A stretch of DNA of 64,000 bases. Origin: Nymphaea colorata (lineage: Eukaryota; Streptophyta; Magnoliopsida; Nymphaeales; Nymphaeaceae). Below, piece by piece: positions 3,001 through 46,300 of this stretch. How positions within the stretch are numbered: position 1 is the stretch's first letter; each line of letters opens with the position of its first letter. The translations under genes and the position numbers were made by a program. A model generated the notes under the pieces. It ran no database searches. It saw only the letters and a list, made by a program, of their open reading frames with translations, and was not told the origin of the DNA. The stretch spans positions 9,245,528 through 9,309,527 of the forward strand of contig NC_045142.1 in assembly GCF_008831285.2 (NCBI RefSeq), given 5' to 3'.

Positions 3001-3885
3001 ATATCCATAGTTAGTAGTAATTGAGAATACTGCAAAACCAGACCAGCTCCGAACAATCAACTCCTAATGAAATGGATGTAGTGGTGGCTTGCTGAAAACC
3101 CAAAGTTTTTTTAACTTGATTATATTAAATAGATGGATCTTATATGAATTATATGACTTGTTTTCAATATTCAGCTTGATCGAACCAAGCCTTCTGAATT
3201 TCTTTTATGAATGTGGCAAAAATAAAGGAAAGTCCATGAACCGACCCCATCATGATCTCAATCTAGTAGAAACTAAGAAACATCACCCCAATTCGGCATC
3301 CATGGGTCATGAACTGACCAGATACCCTATTTAATAAGTGGAACTCATTAGCTGCCCGCTCATTCGACGGACAGTAATCATACCAAATGTCATCAATTCA
3401 ATCCCTTTTTTAAGAATATGAGACATCAAAGCCGTACAAGTAAAGATACAAGATTCATCAATAAACCTTATTTTGTTAAGGAATATGCTTGCCTTCTTAT
3501 AGACCATATTGTGCGATGGACATGTTATGTAAGTACATTTGAGAAGACATATTTCCAACTACCAAAAATTATATACATAATATAATTTGGTGCTCAAAAA
3601 AGATATGAACATAGTCTTCTTACAGAAATTTGCTGAAATGGACGAATTTTATGTAAATGTACATTGTAAAACAAGTTCCAGATTGCAATAAAAAAAAAAC
3701 AATATAAAGTGCAGACAGTCACTCTATCAACAGATTTGTATAAGTGATATCAAGAGAGTGAAGAGATAAATAAACCAGTAGACAGAAAAATAGAGAAACC
3801 AAGTCACACGGAAGACACACAAATTGTGTGGTTCAGATAGGTTGTTTGCCTTCCTACATCCACGTGGAGAACTAAGCAGGATTTA

Positions 3886-3963
3886 TTATTATATGAAGCA
3901 TCAAGTACGGTGAAATCAGAGAAATTATTATATGAAATATCAAGTACGGTGAAATCAGAGAAA
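3886..3963. repeat. Tandem duplication, 39-bp unit, two copies
   Basis: The unit beginning ttattatatgaa at 3886 is repeated from 3925 with two mismatches (gcatc versus atatc). Both copies end in tcagagaaa. It is a local tandem duplication in otherwise unassigned sequence. Confidence 0.85.
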
Positions 3964-5657
3964 CTATCCCCTTACAAAATAATGCTTCTACACCATGACC
4001 CTCCGCCCCAAAATTCCTTTAGGTAAACCTCACCTATATGAAATGAAATGGACAATTCACCAGCTCACGATTGCAATGAATTGAGCTAAAATAGGTCTAC
4101 TTCCTACTAAAATGAGACAATCCTAGCTCGATTCTGCATCCAAATTTCAAAGAGTAAGTTTATTATAGCCAGCTCAATCTAACTTTAGTCGACCATGGAG
4201 TAAAATCCTCAATTTCTAGTTCAATGCAACCTAAACTAACCAAATTGACGTAAAATGGGACCATGTCTAATGAACTGATTCAATTCTAACATAATTCTAC
4301 AGTCAATTCCAAAACCAAGTTCAGGATGGATTAGTTGTAGCCTATGTCATAACTTTTAATGGTTAATGAAGTTCAACCAACCAGCACTAGCTCAAACTTA
4401 GCAAACCCTGTCATATGATGATCATTCCATTGAGTCAAACAGTAATTTCAATATTCCACCCAAATAGGTCTAGAATTGTGTTTCTCCGATTCCCTTGATT
4501 CAATCCTCAGCCCAAATTGAGTAAAAATGTTCTAGAAGTAGCTCAATTGGCTTTTCTTCATTCTAGCCTCTCTTGCTTCACTAATTCCACTTTGAGTGAC
4601 CTTTGGAGCTAATTTTTAGTTTGATATTGATCAAAATTCTTCAATTTATCATAATATGCTTGGCTTGGATTCCCCTAGTCCATCGTAAATTCAATTATCC
4701 AAATTCAGCTTAGTTTCAATCTTATAGGTCACTCAGGCACATCATACTTCTCAAACATTTCATGACTAATATTTAGCCACTGAACTCATTTCTAGCTGGA
4801 TCTAATGTGAATTTCCTGTTTTCAAGATCGATTTATAATAAGATATGACACGAGAGTATATTCTGCTTGAATGGGTGTAGTATGCCCAAAAATACTGTCA
4901 TTTCATGTTCCATTGATTATGTTTGGATTATGCAAAAAACAGTGTACATCTTTTTTATGGCTGCAGATGTCATAATTGTGGATTGTTAGCAGTTGTTAAC
5001 ATGTTCAGTTATAATGGATAATTTAACTATATATAATTATTCATTAGTACTCAAGCATGTTTAGGCTCTATATATGCTCTATTGGAGTTGTAAGGAACTT
5101 GCTTGTTTAAGCTTCTTAAGATTTATAGTTTTTGTTCAGTTTGTTGTTATTGCATGACAAGATGTGGATGTCACTTTTATGGTCTATTCTAGCCTATTTC
5201 AATGCATCATAATTGGTCAGTATTTCTTGTATGGTACACATTATTTTTGTCATGGTGAATTTCTTTATGATTATGCTCCCATGTTATTCCAACTCTTCTG
5301 AATAGTGCTATATATATGATATTGCAATGTTGTATTTTTCTTCATATAATTATTAATGATATTGTGCAATTTATCCAAATAGTGTTGCTGATACTTCTCA
5401 AACCAATATATGTCGAGAAGTTATTTTTTATTGTTGCTTATAGTATTCTTTTCTTGCTTCCTAATTAAAAAAGAAAAAGATAAAAAACAGACTCCATATT
5501 CTATCACATCATTTACCTCTAACAATGCACACCACATATATTGTTCATGATTATACAAATTAAATGCTAGGAAGTATGAAGTATCAACAATCACCAAGTA
5601 AAAACAATGGGTCAGACAACCCATGTTGTGCAAGGACAGACCTTATACAAAACGTAA

Positions 5658-5669
5658 CTCCTCTCTCTC

Positions 5670-5721
<52 letters not shown>
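5658..5721. repeat. (CT)n microsatellite
   Basis: About 31 CT dinucleotides with a single CTGT interruption near 5677. It produces artificial Ser-Leu / Arg-Glu reading frames on the two strands, which are not genes. Confidence 0.95.
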
Positions 5722-5725
<4 letters not shown>

Positions 5726-6278
5726 TGTAGAACTTTAGACAAAAAAAATGTCAAAGATGGAAATAACACATGCACTATTATGGCTGCTCCATGATGGACT
5801 AGTTGATTAAATCTCCTCTTTGATTCTTCGGTCCTACAACTCACATTTGAGATTCATTCTTAAATCATACAAGTCAAACCTAGTTTCTTTACGCTCGCAT
5901 TTTTTTGTCAAGTTATCTTATTTGTTTAATCATGGTTTTTTGCTTTCTTCTGGGCATTGTTGTGGGATAGTTGTTGGACAATGATCTCTGAAATTCAAAG
6001 TAAAGCTCTTTTGATGTCCATGTATTTTGTACCTAAGTTTGCTTTATTTGCATGATTTGGCTGTTGTAATTTTAACAGCAAAACAAAACCTTTTTCTCTC
6101 ACTTGCGCAACTATAGTCTCTTCTTTCATTTGATAATTTTAACATCATTCGCATGTGATTGTAATACTTAGTGTTTTTGTCATGGGCTTACTTTATTCGG
6201 CTCGTGCTGCATGATGGTTACTTGTCTGTCATAAGCCTTAGGGGACAAAAGAGTATGCAAATACTTGAAAACAATGAG

Positions 6279-6567
6279 TGTGTGCTAAAATCAAAGAACG
6301 TAAGGAAAGGAAGGGAGAAACTTGTAATAATCACAGATTGCATTCATCACAAGGGAAACGTAAGCAATGAGATTTGGAAAAAAAATCAACTTTACTTACA
6401 TAGGATAACTGAAGCTGTTTACATATGATTCAAATGTCGACCACCCAAAATGCAGAACCAACATGCATTGGGGTTGGTGGGAGGGGTGCACCATTACAAG
6501 TAAACACAAGCATAAACCAAAAACGTTATAAGCAAAAGGAAAAAAAGATAAAACATACTCAGACACA
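6279..6567 (-). repeat. 3' LTR of gypsy element G
   Basis: Begins TGTGTG and ends ACACA on +. It aligns along its whole length with 9913-10201, with many substitutions, so the insertion is old. Confidence 0.75.
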
Positions 6568-6599
6568 AACGAACAGGCTCCCCCTTCAAATCATGTGTC

Positions 6600-9500
6600 G
6601 TCATCGGTGCTAATTGTTGCATGGTAGGTCGAGATTTCCTCTAGGTGTCGCTGCCTTCAACTGGAAGGCATACTCCTGTGTCGGCTGCTCCTTGCCTACC
6701 CCCTTCACCAAGCACATTTTTGCCTCTCCAAAATAAGTGATTTCATGCAGAAAATTTTGTTCCATTTGTCAGTCCACCACTCTCTGTTTGCTGCTACAAC
6801 GTACTTCTCTACGAGTCTTTACCATCGGCATGGAAGGGCTTTAGGTTTCAAACATGGAACACTAAATGTACTTTAAGGTTTGGTGGTAGATCTAGCTTAT
6901 ATGCCAACTTCTTGACCCTCTTAACTATGATGAATGGTCTTTCATACTTTCGAATCAAAGAACTGCGTCTCCATGAAAGATTCATATGTAGTCTGGGTAT
7001 AGCTTCATGAGGACCTGGTCTTCGATTCTAAACTCTACAGGTTGTCGTTCCTTGTTGACCTACTTCTTTATCTTCTTGGCAGCTTTGTGTAACAATGTTT
7101 TAGCTAACTCCACTTGCTCCTACCAGTTTCTAACAAATTGGTAGGCGAAGGCTGTTCTTCCCCTCTTTTAAGCAACAAGAGTATGTATAATCAGCGGTTG
7201 CTGTCTAGTGGCTATTTCAAACTAAGTATGCATTGAAGGCTCACTCTTTTGTAGGTTGTAGTAGAATTGGGCTACATCTGGTAATTTCACCCAAATTTTA
7301 TAGTTTGTGCTAACAAAGTGTTGTAAGTATCATTCCAACAAAGAATTGTTCTGCTCAATTGACTGCCTGTTTATGGTTATATGCATGTTAAAAACAATAA
7401 GTCTGAGCCTAGCGATAAAAGAACTTCATACCAAAACGTGCCTGTGAACCAGGCGTCACAATCACTTACAATGATTTTTGACACTCTAATACTTCACTGT
7501 ATTCTTTATGAGCATTTTTACCATTTTTTCTGCATGACACTCCTTTGAGGTTTTGATAAAGGTGACATGTTTAAAAAATCAACACACAACTACAAAGATA
7601 AAACTAAAACCATCTACTTTTGGGAGGCTCACAATAAAGTCCATAGAAAGTCTTTCCCATGGACGTTCAAAAACATGAAGAGGTTCTAAGATGTTGGTAG
7701 TTTCTGATTCATCCCCTTGTTCTACAGGCAAATGAGGCATGTTGCACATAGGTCTCCACATCATCCTGCACATGTGGTCAATGATAACCAAGTTTGAGGA
7801 GTGCAAGGGTTCACTCCTTGCTAGGATGGCGTACCCACAATGTATCATGGTATTCCTTTAATAGCTCTCGTTTTGAAGATTGTCCCATCTTGACACAAAT
7901 ATGTGTTTGCCTTTGGTGAGGAGAAGTCCATCCCATAGCCACAATATCAAAGTCTTCCCTACTTCAGCTAGGGCCACTAGGTGCTTTGTCGTGGAGCCCT
8001 ACTTCTCATGAACATGTTCAAAAAGAACACCCTCTAGCTATGGTTCGGAAGCCTATGCCCGATTAGCCATGAGCTTCATACGACTTAGTGCATCGGCCAC
8101 AACATTGGTTCTTCCTGCTTTGTACTCTAGCACAAAATCGAACTCGGCCAATGGGCTTGCTTTAGGGCTAACTTCTTTTGACTTTGAAAATAATTTGCGG
8201 CCACATTGTTCATTTTCACAACAAATTGAGCTCCCAACAGATAATGTCTTCAGACACAAAGGCAATGCATGATAATCATCATCTCATTCGTACACAGAGT
8301 AGTGCCGCTTTGCATCCTTTAGGTTTTGGCTTCCATAGGCAACATGGTGCCCTCTTGCATTAATACCTCACTAATAGTAAAGTTGGAGGTATCAGTATGA
8401 ACTTCAAATAGTTTTAAATGATCAGGTAACTTCAGCACAGGCTCCTGCATATGGACCATCTTTAGCCTATGAAAAACATCTTAAGTTGGCCTTGCCTAGG
8501 CCCATGTCCTACTCTTCTTCTGCATATCAATGAGGGACGCAACAATCTGAGAATACCCCTTGATGAACTGCTGATAATAATTCACCAACTCAAGAAAGGG
8601 CTGCAACTCTTAAACTTTAGTTGGCGAGTTCTACTCTGCATTGACCTTCACTTCATTGTATCCATGCACAACTGACCTTATCCAACATGACCGAGAGAAC
8701 TTATTTCTTCTTGGTTGATGAGGCACTTTTCCTCTTCACATACAGATCATTTGCCTTCAAGACTTAGAACACCATCCATAGATATCCCACATGCTGTTCT
8801 AAGTTGTTGAATACTACAATGTTGTCGAGATAGACTATCACAAACTTGTCTAGATACATGTAGACAATCCTATTCATCAATGTTGAGAAGGTGGTAGGGG
8901 CATTCGTCAACCTAAACGGCATAACTAAAAACTTGTATGCTTCATAATGGGTGACACAAGTGGTTCAGCCCCTTCTTTCGGATTTGCAAATAACTTAAAT
9001 GAAGGTCCAATTTAGAGGAATGCTTGACTTGTTTTCTACTATCACTTTGTTCAGTTTTTGTTAGTCCACACAGAGTCACTTTAAGTTGTCATGCTTCAAT
9101 TGGAACAACATGGGGGCACCATAAGGTAGCCTCGGAGGGCCTAATGATTCCTCTTACTAGCATTTCCATTGAAGTTCTTTCAATTTCATGGGACCCATTT
9201 CATAGCCATGGTAAGTGGTTGTGCACTTCCAAGTCGATGGGTTCACTTCATGTCGATATGACAATCATCTCGGGAGTTTTGCAGCCATCATTTCTATGAA
9301 TTCTTCAAAGATAGGCGCAAGCACCTCTAAGACCAAACCAAGGAAATCATCAAACGCTTCCCTTTTTGCCACCAAGTATGTTTTGCCTACATGCTTTAGG
9401 AACTTCCTCAAGTGGATTGCTGCGAATGTTGGAACCATACAAAAGACCTTGTATCTAGAATGTCAATGGCTCTCAAATGCAGCATCGAGACCATCTTCGT

Positions 9501-17758: not shown

Positions 17759-20700
17759 CTGCACAAGTGGATTGAAGAAATATGCTGTCATAAGCATCTA
17801 AAGCAGAAAAGATGTAATCCAGCAACTTTTGATATGCAACAGCAATAGAACAAAAGAAAGGTCAAATTAATGCAGAAACAAATCATGATCAATAAGAATG
17901 AAAAACCAAGAACCGTTCAATTGTGTGTGCTCTATAAAATAGCTTGGCTAGAACAGCACTGATAAGAACCCCATTAATTAAGGAAAGAAAAAGGAAAATA
18001 CTTCAGCAGCTACAAATTACAGGTAATTTTCTCTTCGCATGAAAAAAAGAAACAGAAATCCTGGTTCAGAATTTTTCAGCATGATAGCTGCAAAAGTACA
18101 ACAAGAAATGTGCTAAATGTTACTGATCAAGAAGGAGCCAACAGGTAGCTTGAAAAAAATAAAAAAAGACTTAGAGAGGGTGGTTACAGAAAGGGATGGG
18201 AGTTGTATGGAAGTGATGTATCCTGAACCGTCACGTAAGAGTTTATTTTCAGTCTTCACTAACAAGATGCCAACTAATCTTTCTGCATTCTATCCAAACA
18301 TTATGCAATTCTTTGTTTTCCCATGAATTACTTTAGATGCAACACGAATGACTGCTTTATCACCCAGAAAAAAATAAGATAAAATAAAGTGTGGTACATT
18401 AAATAGACACTGTCAAAGGACCTAAAACTGATTTGTCAGACCTTGAACACATTGGATATGCTAATTAGGAAACGCACTGATCATGCTAATTCTAAAAAGC
18501 AAATTCAGTGCAAACTAGTTTATCTATGAACCATGAAAAAATTGTGAAGAGAGGAAATGAATGTAATCAGGAAATTAAAGCCTTTTCTCAGTAAAGTAAA
18601 CATACTGATGAACATTCAGTGTCTATGTCCGTTTCAGCAACATGAAGAATCCAAGTTCGTATCCACTCAAGTCCTCTGGCAATATCATTTCCTTGAACCA
18701 AGGAGGAAGCGATAAATGATGGATGAAGAGAAAGCAATATACATGAAGCCGTGAAAAGGGCTGATCTTCTAACAAATGCTTCAGCATGATGAGAAACCAT
18801 CCTGCACATTGACATATCAGTTAAATTGAGATATACACAAAAGGAACTGCAAAAGTCCATGTGAAGCAATAGTTTTTACCTTGAGCTAATTAGGTCGAGC
18901 ACTGGTGAAGCTAATGCTGATGCTTCTGGATGCAAAGCCATACATTTCATGCAAACTCCAAGCAGATGAATCAGTTTCCCAAGAACAATGAAGTCCCTCC
19001 CAAGTAGATCCACACCATGGATTTTCTTATCATATCCTTGCAAAATTGGAAGCATAAAAGCCGCAGCATACATCGGAAATCTGTTTTTTGTCCACTCAAG
19101 GTTTTCATGTATTTTCAATGATTGGCTGCCCCATCTTCGAGACTTTCCCATTTTGAGATGCACTGATTTAGTAGGGAGTTTCCTCTCATACCTATGTGAC
19201 CAACTCAGCAATGTGTCAGTCTCTGAAATCTCCTTCCAGGGGCCAGCACCAGCAGGTCCTTTGCTACTAGGAGCATACCATGGTCGACTTCCTAAACCAA
19301 CAACTGAAACAAGAGATTGATCTTGACACTTCACTCCTATAGTGCTCTTAGCATGAGAGAGTTCAAGAGCTCCATCTGTCAGCACATCAAGGATTAGGAT
19401 CCTTTGGCTGATATCCACATTTGGAGAATATAACAACTTAGTGAGAACATCCAAAGATTCAAATGGACATGAAAAAACCAATGCAACAAGTGCTTTTTGC
19501 CGCTTCTGCTCATCAGATTCTTCTTCCCCCTCAACAGCTATATCAGAGCATCGGACATGAACAAGTGCTTTAGCAAGATCTCCTGCCACATACTGAAGTT
19601 CATCTGGTGCTGCTCGTATGAGATTTTCAGCAACATAAAGAGCTCTTTCGACCTAAGAACAAGAAAAAATAGAAGAAAACATGCATGTCAAAGTTAACCA
19701 CAAACAAAGAGGACAATTTTGTTATATCAGTCCATCTCAAGTGTTGAAATTAGAAAGTTTATACTTAAGTGTGGTAGTTTCTTGATTATTTAAAAGTTAG
19801 AGTCTTCTTTAGTCATTTATATCTTTATGTGTCGACTCTGTCGAGTAAAGACTCTAGCCAACCCCTATTCTCTCTTTAAATAAGAGATTAGGGTTAGCAA
19901 TGAAGGGACGATAGTTTATTCTCATTCTCTTTCTCTCGTTCTCTTTTGTTCCCTCTCTTTTCTCCATCTTTTGTAATATCAGAGCCGGTGATCTCCATCC
20001 TTCTCCGGCGACGGTTGACGTGATTTTCTAGCGACATCTTCTCCTATCTCTTCCTATTTCTTTTCTTTTCTTTCTCTACCCTTCCTTTCTCTCTTCTCTC
20101 TGCTGATCGAAAACTAGTGGAGCAGCGTGGAAGGGGAACCTAATCACACGTGAGAGGTATGTGTGATTAGGTCCCCAACGTGGATGTAGTGCAGCATAAG
20201 CAACTACATGGAAGTTGCGCGTGGGAGTTGCAGTGGAACATTTTTTTTTTCTGATCTGGCACGTAGAACGGTAGAAGACTGCAAGGGCTTGTATCAAAAG
20301 TTTCTTAATTTCTGCTGTTGAAGAAGAAGTTCAGGCTAGATCTGGTCGTTGCTGTGTGGGAGATGACAAGATCAGTTCTGGAATGTGGATCATATCAGAT
20401 CTGATAAAAAAAAAATATCAATATCTGGATGTCGATACATTGAAGCCACGGACATCGACAGAAATTTATATGTGCAGCGGTGTGGCAGTCGACATTGGTT
20501 AATGTCTTAAGGACGTTTCTATCTCAAGACCGCTGACTGTAACATAAACATTTGGGGACCTACGCAATCTATTGTGGAAGTCATGGAATGACGCACAACA
20601 CTGTTTTCTTATGTCGTTGAAGTCTGAGGTCACGTTAGAAATTCTGAAGTTGCCTAAAAATAAGTTTTTGTTGGCTATCGTTAAATCTGCGCACAACTTA

Positions 20701-23700
20701 TGATATTACTGCTCACGTCTAACTTTGAAAAAGTATACATATACTTAGAAGATGTTGGCATAATCATCGTTGTGACATTAGTGGCATGTGGCAGTGGTGC
20801 TGCATGTGATATTGTTGATTTTTACTTTGTTGATCAGCCCTTTGACGAATGATATTGGTGCTGCGATAGCGAGTGATATTGTTGAGTTCTGTGCTATTGA
20901 TGGGCCCCTTACCTAACTGACTACTTATAAGTTGGACGTTCTTTTGTGTGTTCAAATTGCTGCAAAACTGTTTTGGTGCTCCCTGTGTTCATTATGGCTG
21001 AGACTAGCAAACCAGATGGTGGCAATGATTATAAAGGAACTAAGAATTCCTTCTCCTTTGGATCTACAGTCACAGTTAGCATTGACAAATCTGAATATGA
21101 GCAGTTTTTGGCACACAAAGCCCCACAGGCTTCAGCTTCCACTACTTTGATTGATCGAGCTCTCTCTACGGGTACATCCACTCCTGATTCAGATATCTCT
21201 TGGATTATTGACTCAGGAGCATCGAGACATTTCTGCAGTAGACTTGGTTTTTTCACTACGTTGCATAGATTCTCTCAGCCACGTCATGTCAAAATTGCAG
21301 ATGGTAGAATGTCACCTATATTGGGTTATGGAGATGCGAAGCTTTCTGAGTCTATGACCATTCCACATGTCTTATACGCTCCTGAGTTTCCATCTCATTT
21401 GCTCTCTGTTAAACAGTTGATTACTGATTTACACTGTCACATTATTTTTTACCTTGGTGCATGCTCATTTCAGAACTTACAAACTGGGAAGACTATTGGT
21501 GGTTGCTATGAAAAAGGGAGCGTCTACATCATGTCGGCCCCTATGAGTCTTGCTGCTACCACTTCTACATCAGATTCTACACCCTTTCAGTGGCATCTCA
21601 GGCTCGGTCATCCTTCAAGGTCCAAGCTCTGTTCCATCCTACCTCATCTTTCAATCCCAGAGCCATTTCAATGTGAGGCCTGTCAACTTGGCAAGCATAC
21701 TCGTAGTAGTTTTCCTTCGAGTCTTAGTCTATCAAGTCAAGGGTTGTTTGATCTTCTTCATGTTGATGTGTGGGGTCCTAGCAGGGTTGCTAGCTGATCT
21801 AAGTTTAGGTATTTTCTGGTTGTTGTTGATGATTAATCTCGAGTTAGTTGGGTATTTATTTTGAAAGAAAGGTCTACAGTAGTATCTATTCTCACAAACT
21901 TGATTATTGAAATAAAAGCTCAGTTTGGTTCTCTTGTTAAGTGTATTCGCATTGATAATGCTCTTGAGTTCAAATCATCTATCTTAATGACCTTTTATGC
22001 TGAAAATGGTATCCCTCCCCAATTTACATGTCTTCATACCTCACAACAGAATGGAGTTGCCAAACGAAAACATAGGCAACTTCTAACTGTTGCTTGTACC
22101 CTAATGTTTCATAATCATGTACCTGCATACTTATGGGGTGACGTCATACTCACGGCTTGTTACCTGACAAATCGTTTACCGTCATCCTCTATTGACAACA
22201 AAGTACCGATTAAACTTGTTTATCCCAATCGAAGTTTATTTCCTGTTGCACCAAAAGTATTTGGCTGTACTTGTTTTGTTCACAACCTCTGGGCCTAAAC
22301 GTGATAAACTTGTTGTTCAAGCCATTAAGTGTATGTTCGTTGGCTATCCTCGAAACCAAAAGGGTACAAATGCTTTAATCCAGTAACTCACAAAGAGTAT
22401 ATCAGTGCGGATGTTACTTTCTTCAAGTCTCAGTCCTACCTTAGTCCTACTTCTGTGTCATCTGAGATGCCATGTCCTATTCCTCTACCTATCCCTCCAG
22501 TCCCGTTGCAATCTTTTCCTTCTCCTACTCTGACTATGAATAGGTTTCAGGACCCTCCATTGGTATACACTCGTCGGCAGGATCCCTCTCATGGTCGACC
22601 ATCAGAATCTTCTCAGGATGTGAGCTCCATTGAAGTAAGTATACCTGACATTGATCCTTCTCAGGATTTGCCTATAGCCCTGCGCAAAGGCAAGAGACAG
22701 TATACTATGCATCTTATCTCACAATTTGTTTCCACTGACCACCTTGATGACAATTTGCAGCAATTTCTTCATGCCATGACAGTTCATACTGTACCAACTA
22801 GTCATCAACAGGCATTACTAGACTGTAAATGGCGAAAAGCCATGCAAGATGAGATGACTTACAACGTGGTACCTGGGAATTGGTTGATCCTCCTTCAAAT
22901 TGTGATATTGTTGACTCTAAATGGATCTTTACAGTCAAATATCATTCAGATGGGTCTGTAGAGAGATATAAGGCTCGATTAGTGGCTAAGGGTTACACCC
23001 AGACATATGGAGTTGATTTCTTTTATACTTTTTCTCTTGGCTAAGAGTTACACCCAGACATATGGAGTTGATTTCTTTGAGACTTTCTCTCCTGTGGCTA
23101 GGTTGGGTACAATTCGCCTCATTATCTCTGTTGCGGTACACTCTGATTGGCCTATGTATCAGCTGGATGTGAAGAATATTTTCCTATATGGTGATCTTGA
23201 AGAGACTATATATGCAACAACCCCCAGGGTTCGAGCGACAGGGGGAGTGTAGAAAAGTGTGTCGTCTGAAGAAGGCAATTTATGGACTTAAACAAAGTCC
23301 TAGGACGTGGTTTCACAAATTATCTGAGGTCGTTTCACAGTGTGGATTTGAAAGATCTCCTTTGGACCATTTTCTATTCATCAAGAAGACCTCCAAAGGT
23401 ATAGTTGTTATGGTAGTTTATGTTGATGACATTATCCTGACAGGTGATTGTGATCAAGAAATTTCGGTCACAAAGACTTTCCCTGAGAAGCACTTTGTCA
23501 CGAAATATCTTGGTCACTTGCGATATTTTCTTGGGATTGAGGTTGCCCATAACAAAGAAGGTGTAGTGTTGTCTCAGGGGAAATATGTGCTTGACCTACT
23601 GCAGGATACAGGGATGTTAGGAGCCAAGCCGGCTAATCTCCCGATGAATCCACGTCTTCATCTTCATGATGATCAATCGAAGCCAGTGGATTCAAGATCT

Positions 23701-26700
23701 TATAGGTCTCTTATGGGCAAGCTTCTGTATGTCACTATGACTAGACCAGACATTAGTTTTGTTGTTGGGAATTTAAGTAAGTTTATGAAAAAACCTAGAA
23801 AAGTCCATTGGGATGTTGCATTGATGGTTTTGAAATATCTAAAGTCATCCCCGGGCAAGAGCCTCTTTCTCAAGAAAGGTGAATCTTTAAAAATTGTTGC
23901 TTACAGTGATGTTGACTATGCAGGGTCAGTTGATGACAGAAAATCCACTACAAGCTTCTGTATCTTTGTTGGGGGCAACCTCATATCATGGAGAAGAAAG
24001 AAGCAAAATATAGTTTCGAGTTCAAGTGCAGAATCTGAATATAGAGCAATGGCTCAAACGGCTACTCAGATGACTTGGGTTACATCTATACTAACAAATA
24101 TGAGTATTGAAGTTCCCCTTCCTATGAAAATGTACTGTGATAACAAGGCTGCCACTTACATTGCAAATAATCCAGTATTTCATGAGAGAACAAAACACAT
24201 AGAAGTCGATTGTCATTATGTTCAGGATCTTATACAAGGAAGTGTTGTGTCTACCAATGTTATAAAAGGCGTAGCGTATCGCGTATCGGTCGGGCCGACC
24301 TATACGCCGTATCGTAATGTAGGGTAACGTATCATAAAATTATTTTTTTAATTTTAAAAATATTTAAAAATCAGAAAAAAATAGACAAAAATCCTTAAAA
24401 ATCTGAAAAAAATGAACAAAAAATCAGAAATCAAGAAAAATAAAAAATGTATTCAAATATAAAAAAGATCATCATACATAAGGAATATTCATGTGTATAC
24501 TATCAACAATACATTCAAAAATAAAAAATCAAATACTCAAATTAACATAATAAGCATCCATCACAATTTTAAACTTGAAAATTTTATAAAATTTTAGGAC
24601 TTAGAGTCTTAAGACTTGGAGTTTTAGGACTTAGATTACATCACAATTTTATAAGTTCAAACATACAGTTATCATCCTTCATGATTCAATGATGATATCT
24701 CCCAAATTGATGAATTCTCGGTTAATTTTTATGAAAATAGGCAAAATTTCTCCCTCCTATGTCTATTGGAGTCTTTAAATAGAAGAAGAGAGAGAGGGAG
24801 GAGTGTTTAAACTTATAAAAAATAAGAAATTTTATGTTTTCTCCTGTATCGTACGATACGGGGGTGTATCGCCCGTATCATACGATACAGGCCCCATATC
24901 GTACGATACGCATGCATATCGTGTATCGAACACGTATCGTATAGGTTTCTTCAACCTATACGATACGTATTGTACGATACGCGTGCGTATCGTACGATAC
25001 GGATAACATTGGTGTCTACAGTTCATGTAGCTTCTGAAGATCAAGCAGCAGATATGTTTACTAAGGCTCTTCCTATTGGTGATTTCTCTAGATGTTGTAA
25101 CAAGCTGAGCATGATTGATATCTATGCTCCAGCTTGAGGGGGAGTGTTGAAATTAGAAAGTTTATACTTAAGTGTGGTAGTTTCCTAATCATTTAAAAGT
25201 TAGTCTTCTTTAGTCATTTATATCTTTATGTGTCTCTCTTGTGTAAAGACTCTAGCCGACCCCTATTCTCTCTTTAAATAAGATATTAGGGTTAGCAATA
25301 AAGGGACGATAGTTTATTCTCACTCTCTCTCTCTCTTTCTCTCGTTCTCTTTTGTTCCCCTCTCTTTTCTCCATCTTTTGTAACATCAAGTAAAGTCAAG
25401 CATTGAAAAGAATCAAAATTTTCATGACAGGAAGGCAAATAGTGCATAAGAGCTTACACCATCAGGATCATCAGACTTGCGGAGAGCTGTAACAATATCT
25501 GTCAATTGAGAAAATTTTCTTCTTAGATCCATATTGTCATCCGACATATCATATGGTTGAAGAGAAGATTCGCTAGAAGCTTCAGAGTCCCTGCTTTCAG
25601 CATCGTCACTATCTTCCGCATAACGATGTTCATTACATAATGCTGCTGGATCTACAATTTCATCAGGATCAACTAAAGTGGTCTCAGATAGCTTTACGCC
25701 ACTGACAGGTACTCTACTATCTAAATTCTTGCTCCTAGCATGTTTAGAGGATTCAGTCATCATATCATCATTTGTTTCGTGCCTGACATCATCAGGTTGA
25801 ATGTTCAATTCTGAGTCGAGCATAGGGAAAGACTGCTCAGTCTCTACTTTGTTTTCTGTCTCATGCACATCAATCTTAAGCCCTTTAATTTTAGAAGGGA
25901 GGCCAAATTCCCAATCAACTGTTTCTTCCTTACACCTATCATCAAGGAAAAGAGGATTTTTTGGATCAACTACTTTGGAGAATGCCAAAGCCACACTGCT
26001 GGCCATTGTTCGAATCAAATGGTCTGGGTTCTCCAATCTATCTGAAAATAAGCATTCAAGAGAGAAAAAGAAACACAATCAGCAAGATGCGAAACTTTCC
26101 TTACACCTGAACTCATTGAGTTTGATTTGTTGACTATACTGCTAACTCCTTGAAGAAGTAAGTGTGACACATCTATTGCATCAAGACTTTCTTTAGAAAG
26201 CTTTTCTAAAATGAGACCAACAGCAGCAGAGATATCTAAGAAATATTTCAGGAAGTCAACAAATGGAACCCGAGTGGAGCCGAAAAAAATATACAAGGAA
26301 AAAGGATACATGCTTGTTGATCCATGGGAGATGATTGCACGAACTCCTTTTGGGACCATAACTTGATTAAGCTTCCAAAAATCCCTAGAGAGCATTGAGT
26401 GGCATGTACCTCACGCATATTTGTAGAAGGTGCACATTGGAAGACAGCAAACTGCAATATCCATCTCAAGCAAGGGATGGGGAACACTTTCCGAAGTAAA
26501 AACTTCTCAGTGAACAGATTCCTGTACAACAAATAGAACACTCAAAAAGGATCATGAAGCATGTTGTCTAGGTCCACCAAAGCCACATATGACAAGAACA
26601 CATACTTATCATCCTTTACCTACAAACTAAGACCTTCTCAGCAACCATGGTTAAGAAATCATTTTGACAATCAAAACAACACAGGATAAGCACATCACAT

Positions 26701-30545: not shown

Positions 30546-33500
30546 ACCCAAAAGATAGAGTTTGGGAGCGATAGTTTGGGTTTTATAGCTCATTTCTAAC
30601 TTCTGAAGAGGGAAAATCCGTAAAACATAGAAACAGCCTGGTTTTACCTTTCACAACAGGTTTTTAGTTTTCCAAGATTTATCCAGAATTTGTTTAAAAA
30701 ATGATAGAAAAATAATCATCAAATGTACCAAATTCTGGATAACTAAAGGGACCAACTCGGTCAGAATGACTTGCAGCTAACTAATCCCAAAACGGGCCCT
30801 GCTGACTTTGATGGTAGGGACTAGCATGCTAAATATTGACTAGCACCATTTGTCCCTATTTTGGCAATTTGCAACTAAGGAGTAAGGACATTTGAAAAGC
30901 CTTTATTTCAACTCTTTCAAGGATGTAGAAATGTATGTTTTCTATAATGTCATATATATCAAGTTCTTATAACATTTTCAACTTCACAAAAAGAGGGGGG
31001 GAACCCCTAAAGATCTCAAACATAACTTGAATAGAATTTCTGGAAATAATGATGCAGGTTTTATTTTTCAGCAGTCCTCGAGAGGTTTCTTAACTTAAGA
31101 CAAAGAACGTCATTGTTTCTAGAAGGCTTTTTTAATTTTCAAGGCAGTCCATCAAGACAATGTAAAAGAATAGATGCATGGAATCTTCTAATGCAAAATG
31201 AAAAATGGAAGGCAATAAAATTTCAACCAAGAATCGCAAATATCATCCTACAACAAAAGCAGCATTAACTTTGCTCTGGTGCAATTCTGATATCATGTTG
31301 GCAAAAATGGCACTCCCATTACCTGCTGAACCACGTCTACAAATGCGAGAAATCAACTGACTAATAAATGAAAAAGCACCATTTGAAGCAGAAGATAAAT
31401 CTTCTCCTCCAGAAACCGCTAGAACACTGTCTTTGATTACAGCAAGAATCTGAATAGAAACTTGCCTGAAGAACCAACTGGAAAGCTTTCTTAAGAATAA
31501 ACTTGGATTATCATTCTGGAATAAACACGTGAAAAAAGAAAATGCACTACAATGTGAAACCTGACAAGGTATGGTTCTTGCATATACATTCCAAATCATT
31601 ACAATGTGAAAGTTGCCAAGATATAGTTCCTGCATGTGCATTCGTCTGGAAGAAATGGTTGGCTCAAACAAATTTGTTATATAAGGCATCCAAATATGAA
31701 CTGAAAATTTGTGCACTGTGACATGTCTAGGATATAAGTAAATGGCAGAGATGAAAGCTAAAAATTTTGGAACAGAATCTCCCATTGCTTGATCAACCTG
31801 GACACTATACTTCCATCCACAGATCAAACATCAAGACTAAGTCCTCTAATTGGAAAGGATATAGAAGGTCAAAGGATTTCGACATGGATAGTTTACATCA
31901 GCAGGACAGGATTTGCTAGGTCTCTACCAATCAGCATAAAGAAACAGGAGTGATGATGAAGGAGCAGATATACAATCCCCATTACCGATGCATGGATCAT
32001 GACCTATCTCTTGTATTATATACTAATCTTTCAGTACAGGAAAAGAGAAACAATTGCCTGCTGTATAGAACAGAAATGCAGTAATGTCACATGAGATAAT
32101 AAACATGCCATACTTAAACAAATACTCGTAGCCATACTTAAACAAATACTCGTCTCTCAGATCTGAACCAGATTCAAAAGAAAATGGATCCAGATCTGGA
32201 ACATCTCAATAGCATCCGTTAAGAAGTGCATAGTTTTGAACCCTCGAAATATTGCCCTTCAAAACTAAAACTTCTGCTTTTCCAGGCCTTTCATGAATAA
32301 ATTAGCCACTTAATTTTCAATTCAATGACAATGAAGCTCAATCTTTTTGTCTTCAACGTTCTGCATCATGAAATCATCAATCTCTCAATGTGTTTCATCT
32401 GACTGTGAGGGATGAGATTGAAAGATATTTGTAGAGCAGTTAAATTGTTAAAAAATAGGGTTAATCTTGCAATAGATACTCCCAATTCAGTCAACAAATA
32501 TCCAGTCCATGTGACCTTGGTTGTTATAGGCTTATAGCAGTCATAGATCTATTTCTGTTTTCTCTCCGCTCCAAGACACTAGATCCACTCTAATAAAAAT
32601 ATAACAACTAGAGATCAATTGTCTTACATCAGGATGCTACACAATTTGCAGATGCATAGGCAATGATATTAAGTGTGGCATTTTTTAAATGTTGATTCAT
32701 TCAATAACTATATACAAGAGAAGGAGGAGATTGGGAGAGACAAAACAAACAAAGCAATAGTGAGAAGCAGATCTATTTGACATGCTTACATAAATATTAC
32801 AATTATTAGGGTACATTAATACCCTTGTATATTATAAATATATTACAAGAGCGCCATTAATGGGGTGCTGACTGATCAAGTACATATTAAACTGCTTGGA
32901 TCACACCCAATTGGATTTGTTAGAATATGTTGTTATGGGAACCGGGTCCATATCTGGACCCGGTTCTATGGGGCGCGGGTACCGAGGCGGGCTCGGTACC
33001 CTAGGCGGCTTCTCCTCTCTCCCTCTTTATATTGTCACTTGTGTTTAGTGTTGAATTAAGTGAAATATAATTTTCTCTCTCCTAGGGTTGCGGTGAGCCC
33101 CTAGGTCAAAGCCTCCCCGTGGTTTTTCACCTCTTTCTGAGGTTTTCCACGTAGATTGTGTGTTTGTTCTCCACTCTCTCTCTTTGTGGTTCGTGTTTCT
33201 ACATGGTATCAGAGCCAGAGGAGTTGGAGAAGCGTTTTTTCCGAGGATCGTCAAGTTTTTTCGTCGCCCGACGCCGTTGAAGTTCCGGCGCCGCTGCTGC
33301 CCGTTTGTTCCGCCGCCGCTGTCCTTTGTTCCGCCGCCGCCGTCCTCTGTTCCGGCGCCGCTGCTGCACTTGTGACGTCGCCCTGCTCTGCCGCCGCCGT
33401 CCTTTTGTTCCGCCGCCGCCGTCCTCTGTTGCGCCTCCGCGGTCCTCCGTTCGGCCCGTTCTTTGTTTCTGCCACCGTGGGTGGCCTCTGTGTTGCGCCG

Positions 33501-36500
33501 TCGCCTGCTTTCCGTTGCCGCTGCCTCATTCCCGCCGCCGTCGCCGCTGCCTCCTTCCCGTCGCCGTTGCCTCATTCCCGCTGCTGTGCCTCTTGTTGCT
33601 GTGTGCTTGTTTGTGATGGCAGAAGCGATGGGGACTCAAAAAGATGCCGTTCTTGACACGGGCAGCGCCTCCAAGACTGAGAACGTGCCGCTCCAGGTCA
33701 CCTCCATCCGTCTGACCAAGGACAATTACCTATCTTGGTCTGCCGCTCTCGAGATTGGGATTACTAGCCGTGGGCGTCTCTCTTACATCACTGGCGACAA
33801 ACCTGCGCCCATCAAATCTGATCCTCAATGGGCAACGTGGGCGTTGGAGGACAGCCAAGTGAAGGTGTGGATTATCAGCTCCGTGTCATCCGATATCCAG
33901 CCCCTCATTCTGCGGAAGCCGACCTCTTTTGATATGTGGACTGTGCTTGCAAAGATGTATGGTCGCAAGAAGCGACATCTGCGCACCTATCAGATTAAAC
34001 GCAGTATTTACTCTCTGACACAGGGTGATTTATCTGTTGCTGCCTTCTATGCTGCCCTGAAGACCAAATGGGAGGAGCTAGATTATCATGTGACTGATGA
34101 GTGGACGTGCGGTTCAGATCATTCCCTCTACTGGGAAAAGGAATGGATGGACCGTACGTTTCTGTTTCTGGGAGGCCTGCGGGATGAATTTGAGTCTATT
34201 CGTAGCCAGATTCTTAATGGTGATGAGATTCCGGGGATAGAGGAAGTATATGCTCGTGTTGAGTCTGAAGAACAACGTCGCCAGGTGATGCATCTTGACA
34301 CTGGTCATGGCCCTTCTGCCTTTGTCAGCCGTGCCTCAGGGACTGGGCAGCGTCCTGCCCGACATTGCACTCATTGCCACAAGTTGGGGCATTCGGTGGA
34401 TTTCTGTTGGGATCTTCATCCCGAGAAGAGACTGGTCAGAGGTCGTCCTCTCTCTGGCAAGCGTAGCCCTACTGTGTCTGATTCCAGTCAGAGCAATTCT
34501 TCTAGTGGTGCAAAGTCCAAGTTGTCTCCTGCTCAACTCAAGGAGCTACAGGCGTACATCAGCCGTCTATCTACTACCCCTGAGGAGTCCTCCACGTCTG
34601 AAGGGGCTCAGCTAGCCCAAGCCCTCGTTGCCTCGACTGATCAAGGTAACCCTTCTCTTGGTGATTGGATTGTTGATAGTGGAGCCACTCACCACATGAC
34701 AGGGGACTCTAAACTCTTTCAAGAATATCAACTTTCCTCTGGCAAGCAACGCGTGTCTATGGCAGATGGGTCTTCTATCTCTGTAGCTGGGAAAGGGAGC
34801 TTGTCCCTGCTGAACAAATACCATCTCCACAATGCCCTGCATGTTCCAAATATTCCTGTGAACTTACTCTCTGTCAGCAGTATTACTAAAGAATTAAACT
34901 GTAATCTAATTTTCTCTGCTGATCATTGTTCCCTGCAGGACTTGGTGACGGGGAAGAAGATTGGGATTGGTTCGGTTACTGATGGGCTCTACAGGCTGCC
35001 GGTACAAGTTGCTTCAGCGTTGATTTCTGCCACGAGTGGTCACTTGTCTGGTGTGAATGATAGATCTACTGTTCTGCGATGGCACGAGCGTCTTGGACAT
35101 CTCCCCTTCCAGTTAATAAAGAAGTTGTTTCCTCATTTGTTTGCTTCTGTCTCCATTGACTCCTTCGCTTGTGAAGTGTGTCAATTGGCTAAACATGTCA
35201 GGGCTTCATACCCTATTTGTTTGAATAAATCCACTCATCCGTTTGCCTTAGTTCATTCCGATGTTTGGGGTCCTTCTGGAGTACCCACGTGTGGTGGTTG
35301 TCACTATTTTTTGACGCTTATTGATGATTACTCTAGATGTACGTTCGTGTACTTGTTGCGAGAACGTAGTGAGGTTCCAGCAGTTGTGAAAAACTTTGTT
35401 GCCTTTGTTGAGACTCAATTCCATACTACTGTTCAAGCTTTCCGTACGGATAATGCAAGAGAATATGTCTCTCAATCCCTTGATGAATTCTTGAAAGGAA
35501 AGGGTATTGTTCATGAAACCTCTTGTAGTTATACCCCTCCTCAGAATGGTATAGCTGAACGTAAAAATCGTCATCTATTGAATGTTACCCGGGCCATTAT
35601 GTTCCAACGTCATGTCCCGAAGCGGTATTGGGGTGATGCACTTCTCACTAGTGCACATCTCATTAACCGTATGCCTACTAGAGTGCTGGATGGTCAGTCT
35701 CCTTATTCTACCCTGTGGCCTACTCAGAATCCGTGGCCTCTTACTCCTCGTGTCTTTGGGTGCAGTTGTTTTGTGCATAATCATAGCCCTACTCTCAAAA
35801 AACTTGATCCCCGGTCTATTAAAGGAGTTTTCTTGGGGTACTCTTCCACTCAGAAGGGGTATAAATGTGTGGATCCCACTACTTCCAAAGTATATGTTTC
35901 GAGGGATGTCACATTTCATGAACATGAGTCGTATTTTCCGGTGAATACTCTTCAGGGGGAGTGTCTTGGGAACAAAGGGGAAGAGTATTCCTCTAATCAG
36001 CTGATTCAGTTTATGGAGTTTTTGGATTACAAGGTTAGTCCCAGTGTGATTGACACGGTCACGGTCAGTAATGAGAAGGGCAGTCATATGGAAGGGGTCA
36101 CGGTGGATGCTCAGCCCACTGTTGCCCGGGATCACTTGTTTGGCAAGGTTTATGTCAGAAAGGAGAAAGCTACTATGGAAGATGTTGGTGATGAGGATAG
36201 AACCAATCCCAATCTTGTGATCTCCCCGGATGACCCAAGTTCATCGAATGAAGAGCTCCCTATTGCTTTGCGCAAAGGCACCAGGTCATGTACTTCTCAC
36301 CCTATTCAGAGATTTGTTTCTTATGCTAAGCTCAGTACAAATTACAAATGTTTTATCACAACCTTATCCAAAGTTGTTATTCCCAGGTCGGTGGATGATG
36401 CTAAGGATGATCCCAAGTGGTTACATGCTATGACGGAGGAGATGGGTGCGTTAGCTAAGAACAAAACATGGGAAGTTGTTGATATCCCTAAAGGGACACA

Positions 36501-39500
36501 CTTAGTTGGCTCTAAGTGGGTTTACAACGTGAAGTACAAACCTGATGGCACTGTAGATCGATATAAAGCTCGTCTGGTTGCAAAGGGGTTCAGCCAGAAG
36601 TATGGGATCGACTATCTTGAGACCTTTGCCCCTGTTGCAAAGTTGAAGACTGTGAGGGTTATTCTTGCTCTTGCTGTGCACAAGAAGTGGCGCATGGACC
36701 AGCTTGATGTTAAAAATGCGTTCTTGAACGGCCATCTGGAGGAAGAAGTCTATATGAGCATGCCTCCCGGGTATGTTCAAGAGGGAAAATGTTGTCACCT
36801 CAAGAAAGCTTTGTATGGCTTGAAGCAGTCGCCTAGAGCTTGGTTTGAGAGACTAAGGATCGTTATGAAGTCTACTGGGTACAAGCAAGGAAATGGAGAT
36901 CATACCCTATTCATAAAGCAGAGAGATGGTCTGGTGAGTCTTCTCCTTGTCTACGTTGATGATATGATTGTCACGGGCAGTGATGAAGAAGAAAACAGAA
37001 AGATGAAAGAGAGATTAGCTAAAGAATTCGACCTCAAGGATCTGGGTAAGCTGAGATACTTTTTGGGGATAGAAATTGCTCGATCAGAGACAAGGCTGGT
37101 TATGAATCAAAGGAAGTACACTCTTGACTTACTAAAGGAGACAGGTAAACTTGGTTGTAGGCCCTATCTTACTCCTATGGAGTCGGGAACTAAGATAAGT
37201 ATCAAGACGGGCACCACTCTGGATGAGGAAGGAAAAGGGCGATATCAGAGGCTAGTCGGTAAGCTTATCTATCTTACTCTAACTCGCCCTGATATCACGT
37301 ATGCGGTAAATGTGCTAAGTCAATTTATGCATGCTCCCACGGATTGTCATTGGAAGAGTGCAGAACGAGTGTTGGGGTATCTAAAGAATGACCCAGGAAA
37401 AGGGCTGCTGTATACTCGACAAGACAAACTTACTATTGAGGGCTACTCAGATGCAGATTGGGCAGGTTGCACTGACACAAGGAGGTCTACTACAGGGTAT
37501 TGTATCTTTCTTGGAGGTAACCTAGTGGTTTGGAGAAGTAAGAGGCAAGAAGTATGTTCGAGGTCTAGTGCTGAGGCTGAGTACAGGGCTGTTGCAATGG
37601 GGGTTACAGAGATGCTGTGGCTGAAGATTCTTTTGACTGATATTGGTGTGGAACTGGGAGATAAAATGAAGATGTACTGTGACAACAAATCTGCGATTAA
37701 TCTTGCCAATAATCCAGTTCTACATGACAGGACCAAACATGTGGAGATTGACCGTCATTTTATCCGGGAACGCATTGACTCAAAGGAGCTGATTCTGCCA
37801 TATATGAAGTCTGAAGATCAAGTTGCAGACGTCCTAACTAAAGGGCTTTGTACTTCTTCATTTGAAAAGAATGTTAGCAAGCTTGGCATGTTTGACATGT
37901 ATGCCAAGCTTGAGGGGGAGTGTTAGAATATGTTGTTATGGGAACCGGGTCCATATCTGGACCCGGTTCTATGGGGCGCGGGTACCGAGGCGGGCTCGGT
38001 ACCCTAGGCGGCTTCTCCTCTCTCCCTCTTTATATTGTCACTTGTGTTTAGTGTTGAATTAAGTGAAATATAATTTTCTCTCTCCTAGGGTTGCGGTGAG
38101 CCCCTAGGTCAAAGCCTCCCCGTGGTTTTTCACCTCTTTCTGAGGTTTTCCACGTAGATTGTGTGTTTGTTCTCCACTCTCTCTCTTTGTGGTTCGTGTT
38201 TCTACAGGATTCAACCCAAAACAAGCTCCGACATATTTTTTTTCAGCTTTACCCAAGCAATTCCTTGTTGATAAGAGTCTATCGACAATAGTTCCTTTCA
38301 AGCTTCCATATGTCTTCTATCTGGCTCACACATAAAATAGTGACACATGATGTAGTTTCTTGTAAAAGCAAGATACTGAAAGGATACTCAGAAGGTCTTG
38401 ATACCTTGCATGGTCATCGTAAAGACCTCCATTTTGAGAGCTAAGCTTTTGATTGGTCATACTAGGGGTTGCCAAAGATTTGTCTCGAGAGTTATTTTTG
38501 GGTAATTTAGAGGTTTTCAGTAATTTGGTAAAAGTTGTAACAAGTTACTTTATTATTTTTATGTCATTGTGGACTTAATCCATAATTTTCTTTAGCCAAC
38601 TCTAAACCCCATGAAATATGGGATTAAGGCTAATAAAGATACATTTTCTTTTCCCTTTCAACCATGCGTAACATGGCATCAGAGCTGTTCAGGTCTGGGA
38701 CTGCCTGACAGCAGGTTGGTTGAGAGATCTTGTTCATGCCTTCTTCCTCTTGCTTTTTCTTTCTCTTCCTCTCTTCTTCGTTCTTTCTGCTTTTGTCTGG
38801 CTGAGGTTGTGTACCCTAAATAGCTGCTGTGTGTGGGTGATTAGGGAACTAATCACCGCTGATAACAATGCAGTAGTGATTAGATGCCCTAAATTCTGTC
38901 ATTGGTGCTGGTGTTAGTAAGTCATGGTGGACTGTTGGAGGTTGAGATTAGTTGGGCATGATTAAGAAGAATTTCCTATCATTGATGAATGGCTGCATTC
39001 ACGTTGGAAGTGGTTGCTGGTCATGGTTGGTGTGGAAACATGCTGCCTTTGCCTATGAAGGATCTGACATCTCCAACAGTGAGCACAATGTTCACTAGAA
39101 GTTGAAAAGTTGCCCAACTGCTTGTCATCTAGGTGGTAAGGTTCAAAAGTTGCCCAACTGCTTATCGTCATATGTGGTAAGGTGTTGTCCCCTTCTATCT
39201 CATATCTCCCCTTCATTAGGCCTGGAGAGATATGGAAGGTGTTGATTGTGGAAGTTGCTGACATTAGTCCTTTAGCAGAGTTATTGGCTGTCGTGGGGCA
39301 GTAATATCGTTGCTGAATTTGATATACATTTTGTGGTGTCAGTCATTTGTTTTGGTGTACTAATCCTGTTGATGATTTATAGCTGTTTTTTCTTCTTCTT
39401 CTTTTTTTTCTTGCATTAGAAGATCAAGTCTGATTTGTGTTGATGACAAATCTGGTTCTGTAGAAACCGTGCAGTTTGCTTGTCCTTTTATGCTGCCGAG

Positions 39501-43369: not shown

Positions 43370-46300
43370 CATATACACACACACTCTCGTGAGATACCAA
43401 AATCAATTTTATGCTATCACTTATTGACTTATAACCAGTCCTACAGGGTGCGGTTTACGTTGAACAGGATGACAAGCACATAAGCACACTAACAGAGAAA
43501 TGGAAGAGCTTATTGGCATTGATTTTTTCCACCACTACATTAAGAATTGAGAGCTTATAATTGATATAATATAGCTATTTTCACTTGTCCACTAATGAGT
43601 TTTCACAGATCATGCTATATAAGGCAACTATACCTTTTAGCAAATTGTAATGGTGTAAACCCATTCCCCAAAGATTGATTCCAGGGTCGATATATCAAAG
43701 AAAATAATTTCACATCCATCAACCCACACTGCAATACCTAAATAACGCTGTCTGATTCACACATTTTACAATGACATTCAAGACCACACTAACTGGTATA
43801 TGCTCCTAAATGGCCACCATAGACAAGACAGTTTATACTAAAGCATGCAAATCTGATTCGACGATCTTAAGAACTTCACAGCCAACCCCACACACCAGAA
43901 AAAGACCATGAACTGATGAGAGTAATGATGATGAAACCTCACAAATAGTTACTTTTGATAGAACCATGGAATACAACTGCCTCCCATCGACCTGCTAAAT
44001 AGCGGCTTCTCCATAGTTGTTTCACAGAATGCAAAGAAGAATGAAAAATTAAAAGTTTATTACAGTAAACCTAAAACTGCTGATCTGGAAAAACAAAAGA
44101 TGATATGAGAATTCTTGGCAACAAGATCTTAAATGCTGAATAGGCCACCGTATTGGTCATTCCACAAACGTAACATTGGAAACCCTTAGGTTGCATTTGA
44201 TAGCCTCGAATCTTAGATCTGACGCTGTATAAAAAGGTGTGTTTTAGTATATCCTCAGCTTAAACAAACTGAGGATCTCAGTAGCATGGGCAACCTTAAA
44301 TTCATGGCACCACAAATCTCATATCTGCGGTGAAACAAATACAACCGTATGGACAAAGCACAAAGTCCATGCTAAGAAATAGTTCCAAGGCTCTCATGTA
44401 ACAGAAGGATATTTCTCAGTAACCTATTAATAGGAGATAAAGTGTAGTGAATTTGAAGCAACATGACAAAGATAATACAGATATCATTATGAACTCCTGA
44501 AAGTATAGCATCATACCTTTCAGCATTTGAACAAACAAGATCTAGATTAGCTCTCTTGTCCAAGCCACTTTGTTTGTTAGATAAGGCAGGAATTAATGCC
44601 TGAATAGCCTCACTTGGAGGTGCATTAACAAAAAAAGAATCAAAAACAAGTGTCCTTGCCGTCAAAGGAAAACAAGGCAGCCAGTTCAGAGCAATATCTG
44701 CAAATACAAAAGTCATTACTAGCAAAGTCATATACAAACAGCTCAAAGGAGTATATGCAAATGCAAAAATTGTTACTAGCAAAGGCATCTTCAAACATCA
44801 TATCCAAGTGTTAAATGAGAAGTACATAACTCTTATTATCATATTTAACAAGACTCCAGTCCTCAAGGGAACAACATAATGTAACTGTGACCCCAAACCA
44901 GTAAAGCAAGTACTAAAATGCCCTTTTTAATGGTTTAAGACGATTGAGGAGATGATGCTACTTAGGACCTAACCAACATCTCATGCACATACACAGGCAA
45001 ACCTACATATATACAGACCTAGGTGTTCACATAGATATTAGAGCATCAAGGTTTTAGAAAAAAAAGGGAAGAAAAAGGGAAAGAAAGCAGCCTCTGAGTT
45101 TGTTTTAGGCCCAACAAGTTTGTTGGACAAGCCGACTGGATTGCATAAGCATTCTTCAAACCAATGTTATCCGTATCGTACGATACAGACGCGTATCGTA
45201 CGATACGTATCGTATAGGTTAAGAAAACCTATACGATACGCTGTTTAAAGACGATACGCATTTGTATCGTACACGTATCGCACGATACGTGCGATACGGG
45301 GGCCGTATCGTACGATACGGGCGATACACCCCCGTATCGTACGATACGGGTTAAAACACAAAATTTTTTATTTTTTAAAGTTTAAACACTCCTCCCTCTC
45401 TCTCTTCTTGTATTTAAAGACTCCAAGAGACGTAGGAGGGAGAGATTTTGCACATTTTCATCAAAAATAACCAAGGATTCATCGATTTGGAAAATATTAT
45501 CGTTAAATCATGAAAGATGATAAGTTGATAACTATATGTTTTGAACTTATAAAATTGTGATGTAATATAAGTCCTAAAACTCAAAGTCCTAAGACTCTAA
45601 GTTTTAAGATTCTATAAAATTTTAAGTTTAAAATTGTCATGGATGCTTATTATGTTATTTTGAATATCTAATTTTTAATTTTTGAATGCGTTGTTGACAC
45701 ACATGAATGTTCCTTATGTATGATGATCTTTTTTATATTTGAATATATTTTTCTTGATTTCTGATTTTTTGTTTATTTTTTTAGATTTTTAATAATTTTT
45801 CTCTATTTTTTATGATTTTTAAATATTTTTAAAATTAAAAAATTAATTTTACGATACGATACGCTACGTTTGCGATACGTTACGATACAGCGTATAGGTC
45901 AGCTCGACCGATACGCGATACGCTACGCCTTTTATAACATTGCTTCAAACTGAAAATGGCATCCAAAGGCCCAGAACATCCCATGGGTAGTAAATTGGAG
46001 CCAAAGAATTTTTCTATTATACCCCATCCGTCTATAAACTAGAGCTTATGGAATCCTGCTAGAAATATAGTAAAAAATAATCCTTCTCAGGTTTCTAATA
46101 GTGAGGTTTTCTCAAGTATTTTTTGACAAAGCTGTTTTGCTTAGGAAAATCTCGGCAATCTTTTAAAAATGAAAAAGCCCTAAAATTAAGCAAAAGTGAC
46201 AAGAATGAGAAACTGCAATAAGAAGTCATAAACAATAACTAGATAAAATAGTAAAAATAATGTTTCAATAGTGATACAAGTGACAATGAATAATTTCACT

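Follow-up and report, generated by a model that had tools for sequence, protein, structure and literature searches.

A young hAT transposon family with abundant non-autonomous copies and palindromes conserved at one end

Like the elements described here, Tag1 of Arabidopsis has terminal inverted repeats (TIRs) that begin CAATGTT, and the Ac-type target consensus is nTnnnnAn. According to PMC3143072, short subterminal repeats are targets of the Herves, Ac and Tol2 transposases and of that of Tag1, which recognizes them at both ends but with unequal affinity. For Hermes, PMC10368747 describes two BED domains on a quasi-palindromic repeat pair at the left end and recognition of the right end through its TIR. 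The Buster family has the target consensus nnnTAnnn (PMC3517528).

The window, by which we mean the whole stretch of 64,000 nucleotides analyzed, carries two non-coding elements, copies A and B, with the following features.

23188..24254, plus strand: Copia pol ORF (RVT_2), interrupted by A
24247..24254, no strand: left target-site duplication of A, GTGTCTAC
24255..25011, minus strand: copy A, non-coding hAT element, 757 bp, palindrome-rich end at right
24255..24263, plus strand: 9-bp TIR CAATGTTAT of A, AAAAGGCG-type end
24846..25000, minus strand: five GTATCGNNCGATAC palindromes of A, at 24846-24859, 24875-24888, 24896-24909, 24967-24980 and 24987-25000
24932..24968, plus strand: hairpin of A, 16-bp stem, z -8.7
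25003..25011, minus strand: 9-bp TIR of A, CCGTATCG-type end
25012..25019, no strand: right target-site duplication of A, GTGTCTAC
45154..45161, no strand: left target-site duplication of B, CTTCAAAC
45162..45942, plus strand: copy B, non-coding hAT element, 781 bp, palindrome-rich end at left
45162..45170, plus strand: 9-bp TIR of B
45173..45347, plus strand: five palindromes of B, at 45173-45186, 45193-45206, 45275-45288, 45305-45318 and 45334-45347
45934..45942, minus strand: 9-bp TIR of B
45943..45950, no strand: right target-site duplication of B, CTTCAAAC

Both copies are hAT-type insertions. The sequence-only reading had described two copies of about 760-780 bp within perfect 8-bp duplications, and its coordinates prove exact to the base: both duplications are perfect, and both elements terminate in CAATGTTAT/ATAACATTG, which form 9-bp inverted ends. 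The two lie in opposite orientations and share 84.9% identity in an end-to-end alignment; the palindrome-rich right end of A is the counterpart of the transposase 5' side in the coding copies described below. In line with the same reading's claim that neither has coding capacity, the window's ORFs of at least 150 amino acids include none wholly inside A or B; an ORF at 23188-24327 merely extends into A from the Copia pol gene. When A and one duplication are removed in silico, the Copia frame continues to its own stop, and by our reading the continued frame appears to pass through an RNase H-like tail. This restoration shows that A inserted after the retrotransposon was in place. The host Copia element is itself flanked by a minus-strand pair of ORFs matching Telomere_reg-2 and TELO2_ARM (window 18876-26078), so that there seem to be nested insertions, with A inside Copia and Copia inside a TELO2-like gene. 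Elsewhere in the window, 33463-37926 is occupied by a stop-free Copia polyprotein ORF of 1487 amino acids with gag, integrase and reverse transcriptase matches.

One end of each copy had been described as packed with palindromes, and enrichment of the subterminal motif is borne out by 300 dinucleotide shuffles: A contains 14 and B 22 occurrences of GTATCG or CGATAC, against a shuffle maximum of 4 for each copy. Only 8 further occurrences lie elsewhere in the window, and CGTATCG is absent from the window outside A and B. A has one exact instance of the 16-mer CGTATCGTACGATACG and B has three, the remaining units being near-matches. Defining a palindrome site as at most one mismatch to GTATCGNNCGATAC, sites start 12, 32, 103, 124 and 153 bases from the end in A and 12, 32, 114, 144 and 173 bases from the end in B. 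The hairpin noted earlier is real in A, and what did not hold up is its generality: the exact stem pattern occurs in 11 of 32 sampled non-coding copies and in none of six coding copies. It is therefore a feature of a sub-lineage of some non-coding copies and no requirement.

The window's own genome (407.8 Mb in 783 contigs) was searched for further copies. Exact matches number 212 for CAATGTTATCCGTATCG, at the palindrome side, and 138 for CAATGTTATAAAAGGCG, at the opposite end, against none for the reversed-pattern controls of both. With the 757 bp of A as query, the best 40 of 1360 first-look candidates were scored. In all, 48 loci were examined for paired ends, one of which (L031) repeats another (L004); 37 are distinct elements with both ends and at most one mismatch in the 8-bp duplication, two gave only pairs with 4 mismatches, and eight gave no pair. 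Adding copy B yields 38 distinct two-ended elements, 34 of them in perfect 8-bp duplications and 4 in duplications with one mismatch, the chance expectation for a single pair being 2.4e-5. No match was seen at the flanks for duplication lengths other than 8 bp. The proposed 8-bp duplication thus extends to the other copies. Position 2 of the duplication is T in 25 of 38 elements (p 8e-6) and position 7 is A in 27 (p 6e-7), while T at position 4 (11/38) and A at position 5 (15/38) are not enriched, which indicates an Ac-type target preference rather than the Buster preference.

The 32 non-coding copies sampled measure 432-809 bp and have a mean pair identity of 91.4% (68-100%), in a sample biased toward the best matches of A. 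Being shorter than about 1 kb, non-coding and present in many copies, they are MITEs, and they share one end with a coding family. Two of them, L010 on C13 and L011 on C6, are identical over 788 bp and sit in different duplications at unrelated sites. Since non-coding copies that are 100% identical occupy unrelated sites, movement was recent. The CA/TG ends are likewise conserved, as had been proposed, MITEs and coding copies alike having the 9-bp inverted repeats CAATGTTAT/ATAACATTG. The hAT family is thus genuine and young, and MITEs are plentiful in it.

A coding hAT with the same ends had been suggested as something to look for, and a transposase family with CAATGTTAT ends was found. Together with the 8-bp duplications and CA..TG ends, these transposase genes uphold the original assignment to hAT. 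The first coding copy, L070, came from pairing of genome ends; one of its ORFs has Pfam matches to zf-BED (4.2e-06) and DUF659 (1.5e-57) and another to Dimer_Tnp_hAT (4.2e-14), these domain matches sitting on separate ORFs with a middle ORF that has no Pfam match. Near-identical ORFs occur in L073-L077. For the first ORF of L070, the best 96 of 1546 candidates were scored and at least 100 genome matches are listed; more than 60 of the listed rows are at 78% identity or above, and 16 have a stop-free frame of at least 649 amino acids with 96-99% identity. Six coding copies picked beside exact CAATGTTATCCGTATCG ends measure 3428-3500 bp, all six in perfect 8-bp duplications, and share 97.8-99.8% identity with one another; one of them, L078, has a stop in exon 1. 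Ratios of dN/dS are 0.17-0.30 for L073-L076 against L077, values for the closest coding copies being noisy (0 to 1.35). By motif reading, DGWTD and TDNA are present in the exon-1 ORFs of L073 and L079 (a sister-family copy) and GCERNW in L073-L077; these may be the sites of the hAT catalytic D, D and E residues. Sequence search of the PDB matched no Hermes chain to the 438-amino-acid ORF, and for P0001 it returned a single irrelevant match (E 0.09).

The palindrome-rich end is linked to the transposase gene. Of 29 exon-1 matches that begin near the protein start and lie where the listing of ends (100 of them) is complete, 16 have an exact and correctly oriented CAATGTTATCCGTATCG end 353-481 bp upstream, with about 0.01 expected by chance; the other 13 have no exact CAATGTTATCCGTATCG end nearby. 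The end pairings checked were the first 100 places listed for each of the AAAAGGCG and CCGTATCG ends, and no coding copy with the MITE AAAAGGCG-type end is among them. Three long AAAAGGCG/CCGTATCG pairings that might have been single elements are nests or neighboring copies. L072 is two neighboring copies rather than one long element. L071, a candidate for a 7-kb autonomous element, proves to be a MITE interrupted by a second hAT element, which has an 8-bp duplication of its own, CTTTAAAG. This second element (G000:C4:3605500-3614500, 1379-7623) is hAT-like, 6245 bp long, ends CTATG..CATAG and contains a DUF659 ORF; GTACCGG repeats number 4 in its first 400 bp, 8 in its last 1200 bp and 0 between, and its sequence indicates the same design as in the present family with a different motif. 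The L069 end adjoins a PF05699 match, which made an autonomous element conceivable; it belongs to a 672-bp TATCACT-type MITE with its own duplication, ATTGCTAA (G000:C5:13329500-13339400, 7755-8426), lying beside the dimerization domain of another hAT gene. For L070, read by eye, a 5.6-kb element is less likely than a coding part of about 3.5 kb (reverse-complement, about 3170-6672) whose left end has decayed; beyond it there is a piece of another copy. The 30 PF05699 loci L039-L068, taken with 1.5 kb on either side, contain no element with both ends.

Palindromes are conserved at this end. Across 39 elements (32 MITEs, 6 coding copies and 1 sister copy) there are 1 to 7 per element, none in any interior and one element with a palindrome at the other end. 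The site starting at base 12 is present in 28/32 MITEs and 6/6 coding copies, and the second, at base 32, in 19/32 and 6/6. The sister copy, L079 (G000:C12:12408700-12413100), is 3480 bp long with TIR CAATGTTGTA and duplication CGTAACGC; rows of the sister family, at 57-60% identity and many with a stop, are found among the listed matches to the L070 ORF. L079 has the same palindromes as the present family, but a different end sequence follows. Its palindromes start at 12, 32, 124, 145 and 174, compared with 12, 32, 123, 144 and 173 in L073, L074 and L078, so that spacing agrees within 1 bp in three of six coding copies; L075, L076 and L077 differ in number or spacing. Comparing L073 with L079, the one sister copy used, 67/70 positions are identical within palindromes and 74/134 in the end sequence around them (Fisher p 1.4e-10), and the sites are thus far better kept than their surroundings. 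Exon 1 of the same pair has 65% amino acid identity, with dS 1.39 and dN 0.25. As the palindromes are kept in the sister family despite diverged surroundings, the comparison suggests that they are candidate binding sites for the transposase, through BED.

We think it probable, with good confidence, that A and B belong, as non-autonomous elements of MITE type, to an Ac-type hAT cut-and-paste family and are moved in trans by a transposase whose BED domains recognize the palindromes. The transposase of the coding family would move the MITEs, its N-terminal BED zinc fingers binding the half-sites GTATCG and CGATAC; as half-sites would be bound in pairs, two BED domains would sit on each palindrome, for which the Hermes left end is the precedent. 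The array at one end would nucleate the transpososome, and the other end, almost without palindromes, may be captured mainly via its TIR. The MITEs themselves would have arisen from a coding relative by internal loss and a changed AAAAGGCG end.

The main doubt about trans-mobilization is the far end of the MITEs. The palindrome-rich end is common to MITEs and coding copies, yet the other diverges right after the 9-bp TIR, reading TATAAAAGGCG in MITEs versus TATCACTGCCG in coding copies; TATAAA follows the TIR in 31 of 32 sampled MITEs and TATCACT in L069 alone. Such ends would suit MITEs that are hAT elements moved by another, unseen hAT transposase with AAAAGGCG ends, the coding family being merely a relative, and the scoring of the best 96 among the 1546 first-look candidates leaves room for one. 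We nevertheless judge this unlikely. Not only are the palindrome-rich ends the same, but about 210 bp at the start and about 320 bp at the end of coding copies are homologous to the MITEs (it is the MITE middle, about 185 bp, that has no counterpart in coding copies). Moreover, the palindromes recur in the sister family although another end sequence follows there, which implies that this stretch is not tightly constrained, and the pairings checked hold no AAAAGGCG-ended coding element.

Less likely still is that the palindromes serve the transposase gene as promoter or operator sites and are found in MITEs only by descent. The array does lie in the expected promoter place, between the end and exon 1, with the end 353-481 bp upstream of the start of the match. 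Non-coding copies need no promoter, yet most keep the first site and 19 of 32 the second, and the recently moved MITEs L010 and L011 have all five; hAT relatives, moreover, bind subterminal repeats (PMC3143072, PMC10368747). The two roles, transposase site and promoter, could coexist. That the repeats are a functionless by-product of hairpin or replication-slippage expansion, homogenized in place, is very improbable, for although site number varies and the end folds into a very stable structure (z -9.1), sites are confined almost wholly to one end and are nearly unchanged relative to those of a sister family, where the DNA between sites has 55% identity; repeat homogenization is a possible source of the likeness between L073 and L079 sites.

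Returning to BED recognition of the palindromes by a trans-acting transposase, a more elaborate and rather doubtful version would make the array a graded docking platform. Several BED pairs would load on the one-end array, its sites set at a constant helical distance (20-21 bp within pairs), and their occupancy would both build the transpososome and repress the transposase gene, a dual role suggested by the position of the array, which is also upstream of that gene. The geometry would have persisted between families despite synonymous saturation of their transposases, and a fuller array would let a MITE outcompete others.

A literature text search for the GTATCGTACGATAC palindrome gave no match, and among the listed literature matches to CAATGTTAT no title concerns plant transposons; neither result shows the family to be unpublished. 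In this system a high-copy plant MITE and a young coding family occur together in one genome. Its sister families, whose proteins have diverged while their sites have hardly changed, offer a natural test of BED-to-palindrome recognition, and so the Hermes model of asymmetric end recognition becomes testable in plants.

Among known systems, the closest likeness is to hAT elements of the Ac/Ds kind, with 8-bp duplications, short CA..TG TIRs, and BED and hAT C-terminal dimerization domains. The autonomous and deleted pair of Ac/Ds resembles the coding copies and their non-autonomous partners, and both have subterminal repeats. The GTATCG/CGATAC motif and the TIR are, as far as seen, particular to this family group, Ac having been compared by description. 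The Tag1 motifs given in PMC3143072 are AAACCC and TGACCC, in contrast to the GTATCG palindromes found here. BniHAT-1/2 of Brassica nigra and Mar of Drosophila likewise have short non-coding copies with 8-bp duplications (PMC7385995 and PMC3517528); Mar, however, is Buster-type (nnnTAnnn, PMC3517528), and positions 4 and 5 are not enriched in our family. Hermes of the housefly has one high-affinity end (PMC10368747), and here too nearly all palindromes lie at one end; its core site, AAGT, is mostly single, compared with up to seven full palindromes in these elements.
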